From Vulcanisaeta souniana JCM 11219 (lineage in GTDB: Archaea > Thermoproteota > Thermoprotei > Thermoproteales > Thermocladiaceae), in contig NZ_AP026830.1 in assembly GCF_026000775.1 (NCBI RefSeq), positions 2,255,056-2,319,055 of the forward strand: a stretch of 64,000 bases of DNA, in the 5' to 3' direction. The translations under genes were made by a program, and so were the position numbers. Of this stretch, positions 23,795 through 37,170 are shown piece by piece. Under the pieces are notes generated by a model. That model was not told the origin of the DNA and did no database searches. It worked only from the letters and a program-made list of their open reading frames with translations. Position 1 is the first letter of the stretch. The number at the start of each line of letters is the position of its first letter.

Positions 23795-23832
23795 AAACTA
23801 CTTATTAAACACCAGGGGATCACTTGCTTAGT

Positions 23833-23892
23833 TGAAGTGATGAGTGAGCCTCGAACATAGAGTTGATGAAGAAATCGAACCGGGCTGATTAT
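23833..23892 (+). ncRNA. C/D-box guide sRNA candidate 2, both guides match tRNA T-arm sequence
   Basis: C box GTGATGA (23837-23843), first guide 23844 onward, degenerate D' (possibly TAGA, 23858-23861), C' box TTGATGA (23063 + 800, i.e. 23863-23869), second guide up to 23884, D box CTGA (23885-23888). A TATA-like TTATTAAA (23802-23809) is about 26-28 bp before the expected 5' end. Guide 1 (GTGAGCCTCGAAC) is the complement of a T-loop plus 3' T-stem; guide 2 (AATCGAACCGGG) is the complement of tRNA positions 49-60. With D'=TAGA, the fifth-base rule places the methyl on C56. The RNA ends just before the convergent L14e stop. Confidence 0.78.
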
Positions 23893-23894
23893 TA

Positions 23895-24200
23895 CTACTG
23901 CTGTGTTGGTACCATTGTCAGCTTTGGCTTGATCGCTTGCTTCATGTAGTCAACTAGGTTAGCTTCCTCTATTGCCTTGAGTACCTCTTCGTCGCTGGCA
24001 CCCCTCTTGACATTCACCTTATACTCTGTTGGTTCGATGTGCTTGACGTTGACCGCCCTCCTCTTGACACCCGTGAGTGTCCTTGGCCCGGTGACTATTA
24101 CGAAGTTTTCATCCTTAATGTCCACAATGACGCACTTCCTACCTGCTTCTCTACCCGCCACCTTCACGCATACCCTGCCAATATCGAAGACCCTAGGCAT
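23895..24200 (-). CDS. rpl14e: Ribosomal protein L14e
   Basis: About 101 aa large-subunit protein of archaea/eukaryotes with a KOW-like beta barrel at the N-terminus (FDIGRVCVKVAGREAGRKCVIVD), then FVIVTGPR and the VKRRAVNVKHIEPTE stretch. The C-terminal helix is DEEVLKAIEEANLVDYMK. Two adjacent Met codons start the frame; the second (24200) is as likely as the first. Confidence 0.94.
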   Translation of the reverse strand: MPRVFDIGRVCVKVAGREAGRKCVIVDIKDENFVIVTGPRTLTGVKRRAVNVKHIEPTEYKVNVKRGASDEEVLKAIEEANLVDYMKQAIKPKLTMVPTQQ

Positions 24201-24313
24201 CAAGCACGGGTAGTGCAGGGCTTTATAAGCATTTCATGTTTCGAACCTTGTTCTTGGTAATATATAAAGTATGTACTAATACTCTTTATAAGTATATTTA
24301 ACTTTTAATAATC

Positions 24314-37050: not shown

Positions 37051-37170
37051 TGGTGGGCCCGCCGGGATTCGAACATTCCCCGCGGTTAACCCGCGACCGG
37101 GACCTCCCGGTTATGAGCCTTACGCGGGGCGATTGCCCCAGGGCGCTCTACCTGGCTAAGCTACGGGCCC
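37051..37170 (-). tRNA. tRNA-Met-type (CAU) with two non-canonical introns
   Basis: Acceptor GGGCCCG (37170-37164) pairs with CGGGCCC (37061-37055); A73 at 37054, CCA encoded at 37053-37051. Anticodon CAT at 37115-37113. The anticodon stem closes only if 21 nt (37140-37120) are removed between positions 29 and 30: CCC + GG pairs with CCGGG. The T-stem closes only if 22 nt (37096-37075) are removed between positions 52 and 53: CCGG + G, then TTCGAAT, then CCCGG. Each insert folds as a hairpin (GGGGC/GCCCC; CGCGG/CCGCG) consistent with a bulge-helix-bulge site. Mature length 74 nt. G1-C72 argues against initiator; elongator Met or Ile2 cannot be separated. A TATA-like box (GCTTAAAAG on the minus strand, about 37194-37202) is upstream. 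Confidence 0.93.

Follow-up and report, generated by a model that had tools for sequence, protein, structure and literature searches.

Does the short element at positions 23833-23892 of the window (the whole 64-kb stretch of DNA analysed here, from a complete archaeal genome of 2.43 Mb, labelled G000) encode a guide RNA, and, if so, which tRNA does it read and which nucleotide does it mark? An earlier note on this DNA had proposed a C/D-box sRNA whose two guides both complement the tRNA T-arm, a compact replacement for the enzyme Trm56. The follow-up analysis retains the RNA and assigns it a different target: we put at roughly 0.7 the probability that this is a C/D methylation-guide sRNA dedicated to the initiator tRNA-Met, with guide 2 directed at the T-arm and guide 1 at the anticodon arm. 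Judged from sequence, the RNA is of a familiar type, and what sets it apart is its target.

The approximate transcript, whose ends are predicted, lies on the forward strand and has a C box (RUGAUGA) towards one end of its ~60 nt and a D box (CUGA) towards the other, as an archaeal C/D sRNA should. The C box (GTGATGA, 23837-23843) is followed by the conserved part of guide 1 (GTGAGCCTCG, 23844-23853), a degenerate D' region (CATAGA, 23856-23861), a clear and conserved C' box (TTGATGA, 23863-23869, read from the sequence and from alignment A1), guide 2 (TCGAACCGGG, 23875-23884) and the D box (CTGA, 23885-23888), all on the same strand. Both the TGATGA of box C and the CTGA of box D are invariant in alignment A1; the identity of box D' is uncertain, CATA giving a 12-nt spacer and TAGA one of 14, and the C at 23856 is kept in all aligned members except one. 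An AT-rich, TATA-like promoter element (TTATTAAA, 23802-23809, forward strand), which the earlier note had also seen, can be read some 28 bp ahead of the C box, and relatives have comparable AT-rich stretches 5' of theirs. The convergent neighbour, identified from its ORF, is a ribosomal protein L14e-like gene (23895-24203, reverse strand); by tblastn synteny it adjoins the sRNA in nine of nine Vulcanisaeta loci checked, this one included, and is not its neighbour in any of four Caldivirga loci.

BLASTN, pattern searches and sequence-profile searches recovered the sRNA in 15 genomes (11 of 12 from Vulcanisaeta and four of five from its sister genus, Caldivirga), family membership being set by matches to profile model R1 at E <= 1e-10. 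The members in G016 and G019 were recovered by the profile though absent from its own input, and the reversed pattern, run as a control, gave zero matches. Searches of the remaining 30 genomes of the order yielded no convincing homologue; weak matches in Pyrobaculum/Thermoproteus-type and other genera were read as different sRNAs, and a scan of genome contigs with TGATGAGTGAGCYYCG returned mostly chance bacterial matches. Since the element is kept in both order and sequence across the two genera, it is not a chance motif; the comparison identifies the locus as a real, conserved C/D-box sRNA gene, with the C, C' and D boxes that the earlier note had described. A different C/D sRNA, with guide TTCACGTACCGG-CTGA, is common to G024 and G041 of another family (L329 and L337).

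The proposed replacement of Trm56 began from a sound premise: the enzyme (PF01994) is absent from this genome and from 44 of the 45 genomes of the order, being present only in G025, with positive controls. Not one of this genome's 46 tRNA-like loci contains GTTCGAGGCTCAC, the sequence that guide 1 was supposed to complement; all their T-loops read TTC(A/G)A(A/G)T, then CC. The longest contiguous run that guide 1 can pair at any T-arm is of eight bases (ATGTTCGA), two of which belong to the adjoining intron, and the TCGAAC part of guide 1 becomes TCGAGC, TCGATC, TCAAAC or CCGTGC in relatives. Neither guide 1 nor guide 2 sets its fifth base opposite C56 in actual tRNAs. A pattern search for a C56 guide found instead TGATGA-CGAGGGATTTGAACG-CTGA at G000:C1:2083552-2083576, within a second sRNA (TGATGACGAGGGATTTGAACGCTGA, locus L265) that complements GTTCAAATCCC with its fifth base on C56. 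The motif GTTC(A/G)A(A/G)TCC is present in all 46 tRNA-like loci, and the L265 sRNA fits nearly all tRNAs; counterparts (L258, L251 and L261) occur in G021 (Vulcanisaeta), G003 (Caldivirga) and G029 (another family, f3). This pairing makes the L265 sRNA the likely Trm56 replacement, and the gene at 23833-23892 is thus not that replacement. A dual T-arm guide whose guide 1 makes Cm56 in place of Trm56 would account for the missing enzyme and for the six bases of GTTCGA that TCGAAC can pair; but the rest of the guide 1 complement is found in no tRNA, TCGAAC is not conserved, and a better, conserved Cm56 guide lies elsewhere in the genome, so that we regard this reading as highly improbable.

When both guides were scored against the 46 tRNA-like loci of this genome, guide 1 scored highest on L025, and guide 2 scored highest on L025 and two other tRNAs equally. 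L025 carries the pair A1-U72 (AGCGGGG...CCCCGCU), which we take to be a mark of an archaeal initiator tRNA, together with G29-G30-G31 paired with C39-C41 and the anticodon CAU. Two further CAU tRNAs in the genome have anticodon stems differing from that of L025. Three G-C pairs at 29-31:39-41 are a near-universal initiator feature (PMC7531240). By these sequence features L025 is the initiator tRNA-Met; an elongator tRNA-Met is ruled out by A1-U72 and 29-31:39-41, two other CAU tRNAs being at hand. Among the 45 loci of the Caldivirga genome G001, the best tRNA for both guides is likewise a CAU tRNA with A1-U72 and G29-31:C39-41. Scans of 16S and 23S rRNA, in the genome itself and in relatives, gave no convincing target for either guide, since even the best matches to its own rRNA stop at nine contiguous pairs or contain mismatches, and none of them singles out a site.

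Introns or inserts interrupt several of the tRNA genes. The initiator gene (L089, L090-L095) contains a ~19-nt variable-loop insert, apparently a non-canonical intron, in G000, G015, G018, G019 and G021, and lacks it in G014 and G017. Two introns interrupt a CAU-anticodon tRNA gene at 37054-37170 of the window (reverse strand), one falling where T-stem and T-loop meet; this gene scores under the Rfam gathering threshold and is not among the ARAGORN predictions for the window. Introns just 5' of the T-loop also split the T-stem in the tRNA genes L068, L069, L070, L083, L084 and L088, so that T-arm guides could pair with these tRNAs only after splicing.

The assignment to the initiator is carried by guide 2. 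It forms ten contiguous Watson-Crick pairs with CCCGGTTCGA, which is found in the initiator tRNA-Met (L025) and in both tRNA-Gln (L021 and L061), the three scoring equally. The earlier note's claim of a T-arm match therefore stands for CCCGGTTCGA in real tRNAs, and fails for the exact sequence predicted, CCCGGTTCGATT, where the tRNAs read CCCGGTTCGAAT. In the initiator the paired stretch is nt 49-58 (CCCGGUUCGA); a published guide criterion asks for an uninterrupted run of at least nine Watson-Crick pairs that takes in the fifth-base site (PMC4644070), and guide 2 has ten, site included, while guide 1 in this genome, with two G·U pairs, does not reach that number. Scored against all tRNAs, shuffled versions of guide 2 do as well as the real one in 0.7% of cases here and in 0 of 150 in G001.

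Taken within this genome, the equal scores would allow guide 2 to methylate tRNA-Gln(UUG/CUG) besides or instead of the initiator, since all three tRNAs carry CCCGGTTCGA; the comparison between genera makes this unlikely. The initiator T-arm reads CCCGG-UUC(G/A)AAU in Vulcanisaeta and GGUGG-UUCGAAU in Caldivirga, whereas the tRNA-Gln matches in G001 have a 3' part near-identical to that of Vulcanisaeta. Guide 2 of G001 (ATTTGAATCAC / AUUUGAAUCAC) makes 11 of 11 pairs, two of them G·U, with the altered initiator T-arm GUGGUUCGAAU, and no longer fits the Gln-type T-arm. There, GTGGTTC occurs in the initiator alone among the 45 tRNA-like loci, and the initiator scores 22 against 18.5 for the next best tRNA. 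With the initiator T-arm changed and the 3' part of tRNA-Gln kept, guide 2 follows the initiator and not tRNA-Gln. Eleven of 12 guides 2 fit the T-arm of their own initiator better than they fit its counterpart in the other genus, the exception, G004, fitting both equally. A finer correspondence is seen at position 57, where a G57 tRNA is matched by a guide C in G000, G017 and G021 and an A57 tRNA by a guide U in G014 and G018; in the latter two, guide 2 tracks the A57 of the initiator, against tRNA-Gln matches consistent with G57. The correspondence is broken in G015, G016 and G019, and mismatches between guide 2 and the initiator T-arm occur in G002, G015, G016, G018 and G019. The assignment of guide 2 to the initiator T-arm is, on these co-varying sequences, well supported.

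Guide 1 is more difficult to judge. Its nt 1-10 (GTGAGCCTCG / GUGAGCCUCG) form ten of ten pairs, two of them G·U, with nt 27-36 of the initiator (CGGGGCUCAU), a segment that includes the G29-G31 signature and the CAU; the Caldivirga guide (GTGAGCTCCG / GUGAGCUCCG) also makes ten of ten pairs with nt 27-36, with one wobble moved. These ten nucleotides are conserved and paired, and later ones are variable. When all tRNAs are considered, however, shuffled guides 1 score as high as the real one in 21% of cases here and 54% in G001, so the score alone means little. Once guide 2 has fixed the initiator as the pre-specified target, the probability of the match falls to P=0.0075 in this genome and P=0.0275 in G001, values from two genera that are not independent. 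Because the anticodon arm is invariant, it offers no true covariation for guide 1.

A substantial competing explanation, which we hold to be somewhat short of an even chance, is that guide 2 alone is functional and that guide 1 is an orphan or drifting sequence matching the anticodon arm by chance. It draws on the lack of significance over all tRNAs, on the degenerate D' and, according to a review, on the usual presence of one target-less guide in tRNA-targeting sRNAs. It sits less easily with the choice of the same initiator as top tRNA for guide 1 in both genera, with the P values obtained once guide 2 sets the target, and with the confinement of conservation to nt 1-10, where the changes are mainly pairing-preserving C/U swaps opposite G. 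A reading of the sRNA as a double guide is favoured here, though not yet well supported. Much less probable is a role for guide 1 in Cm34 formation on the initiator, with the TCGA of nt 8-11 serving as a cryptic D' box. The fifth base would then face C34, and other archaeal tRNAs are known to receive Cm34 from C/D guides, but the guide would be only 7 nt long against the usual 10-12, and the TCGA word is lost in Caldivirga (CCGT), in G022 and in G023.

Methylation sites were assigned by the fifth-base rule (PMC7994747, PMC4644070), and for both guides the exact positions given here are tentative. The earlier note had guide 2 pointing at G53; by this rule that holds in G000, and also in G017 and G021, because one extra G adjoins box D. 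It appears to be a local one-base shift, as in nine other genomes of the two genera (G014, G015, G016, G018, G019 and G001-G004) the fifth base stands opposite U54, whose occurrence in both genera suggests that U54 is the older site. For guide 1 the predicted site ranges over nt 26-29, varying with the genome and with the choice of D': a D' whose first base is the conserved C, the 13th nt after box C, gives a 12-nt spacer and G29, and a D' placed on the TGA-like word 1-2 nt later moves the site to nt 28 or 27. The G29 site would here be a G·U pair and might be unproductive, which would leave guide 1 the part of an anchor; one published study accepts second guides of this non-productive sort (PMC4644070).

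In the mechanism that we propose, the D guide (guide 2) would pair with the initiator T-arm, at nt 49-58 in this genome, and direct a fibrillarin sRNP, into which the RNA, if expressed in stable form and bound by L7Ae, Nop5 and fibrillarin, would assemble, to place a 2'-O-methyl group on the base opposite its fifth nucleotide, predicted to be U54 in nine family members and G53 here and in at least two relatives. The D' guide (guide 1) would pair with that tRNA at nt 27-36, so recognising both the G29-G31 signature and the CAU loop, and might either direct a second methylation in the anticodon stem, at nt 27-29, or serve as an anchor that selects the initiator over tRNA-Gln and elongator tRNA-Met.

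Two reported modifications fall in the two arms that this sRNA pairs, Um54 and Gm29. A 2018 table (PMC6313347) gives the enzyme for archaeal Um54 as 'Unknown' and refers to Kuchino et al. 1982, a paper on the initiator tRNAs of archaea; a 2021 review states that no guide RNA has been reported for U54 and that the presence of Um54 still has to be proved more clearly (PMC7912444). Gm29 was assigned to the initiator tRNA of S. acidocaldarius by Wolff et al. 2020 (PMC7668247). In the literature consulted, S. acidocaldarius is the one organism for which initiator Um54 is reported, and a look for tRNA modification data on Vulcanisaeta or Caldivirga yielded none. The parallel runs across orders, and we treat it as a lead, not proof. 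At its most ambitious the proposal would be of a free-standing sRNA that reads two identity regions of the initiator (the G29-G31/CAU arm and the T-arm) and installs methyl groups on U54 and on a G of the anticodon stem, matching the Um54 and Gm29 of Sulfolobus, and hence of a first archaeal Um54 guide and of an RNA devoted to maturing the start tRNA; we consider this full version doubtful. The sRNA could explain an initiator-tRNA mark whose maker has been unknown since 1982, and would single out the tRNA with which translation begins, in a lineage where the target nucleotide has apparently shifted by one position. As the RNA, the tRNA and the nucleotide can each be named, the question is directly testable.

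Three known systems invite comparison. In Pyrobaculum, according to the account of Renalier et al. 2005 given in a review (PMC7912444), a C/D sRNP makes Cm56 in tRNA. As described there, that system resembles the present one in using a C/D sRNA to guide T-loop methylation of tRNA in an organism without Trm56; it differs in that the Pyrobaculum guide addresses C56 of tRNAs, whereas the RNA described here would read one tRNA and points at position 53 or 54, the likely equivalent of the Cm56 guide in this genome being another gene, L265. The C/D sRNA families of Pyrobaculum (110 families in six species, with 16% of guides predicted on tRNA; Lui et al. 2018 as summarised in reviews) are of the same RNA kind and from the same order; according to those reviews they pair one tRNA guide with one orphan guide, unlike the arrangement proposed for this RNA. 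A parallel to a double guide is the tRNA-Trp intron/sR50 guide of Pyrococcus and Haloferax, which directs Cm34 and Um39 (PMC7994747) and in which, as may be the case here, a single C/D RNA with two guides serves two sites of one tRNA. That guide is an intron of its own target, with both sites in the anticodon region, whereas the RNA at 23833-23892 is a free-standing gene, whose guides would span the anticodon arm and the T-arm of the initiator.
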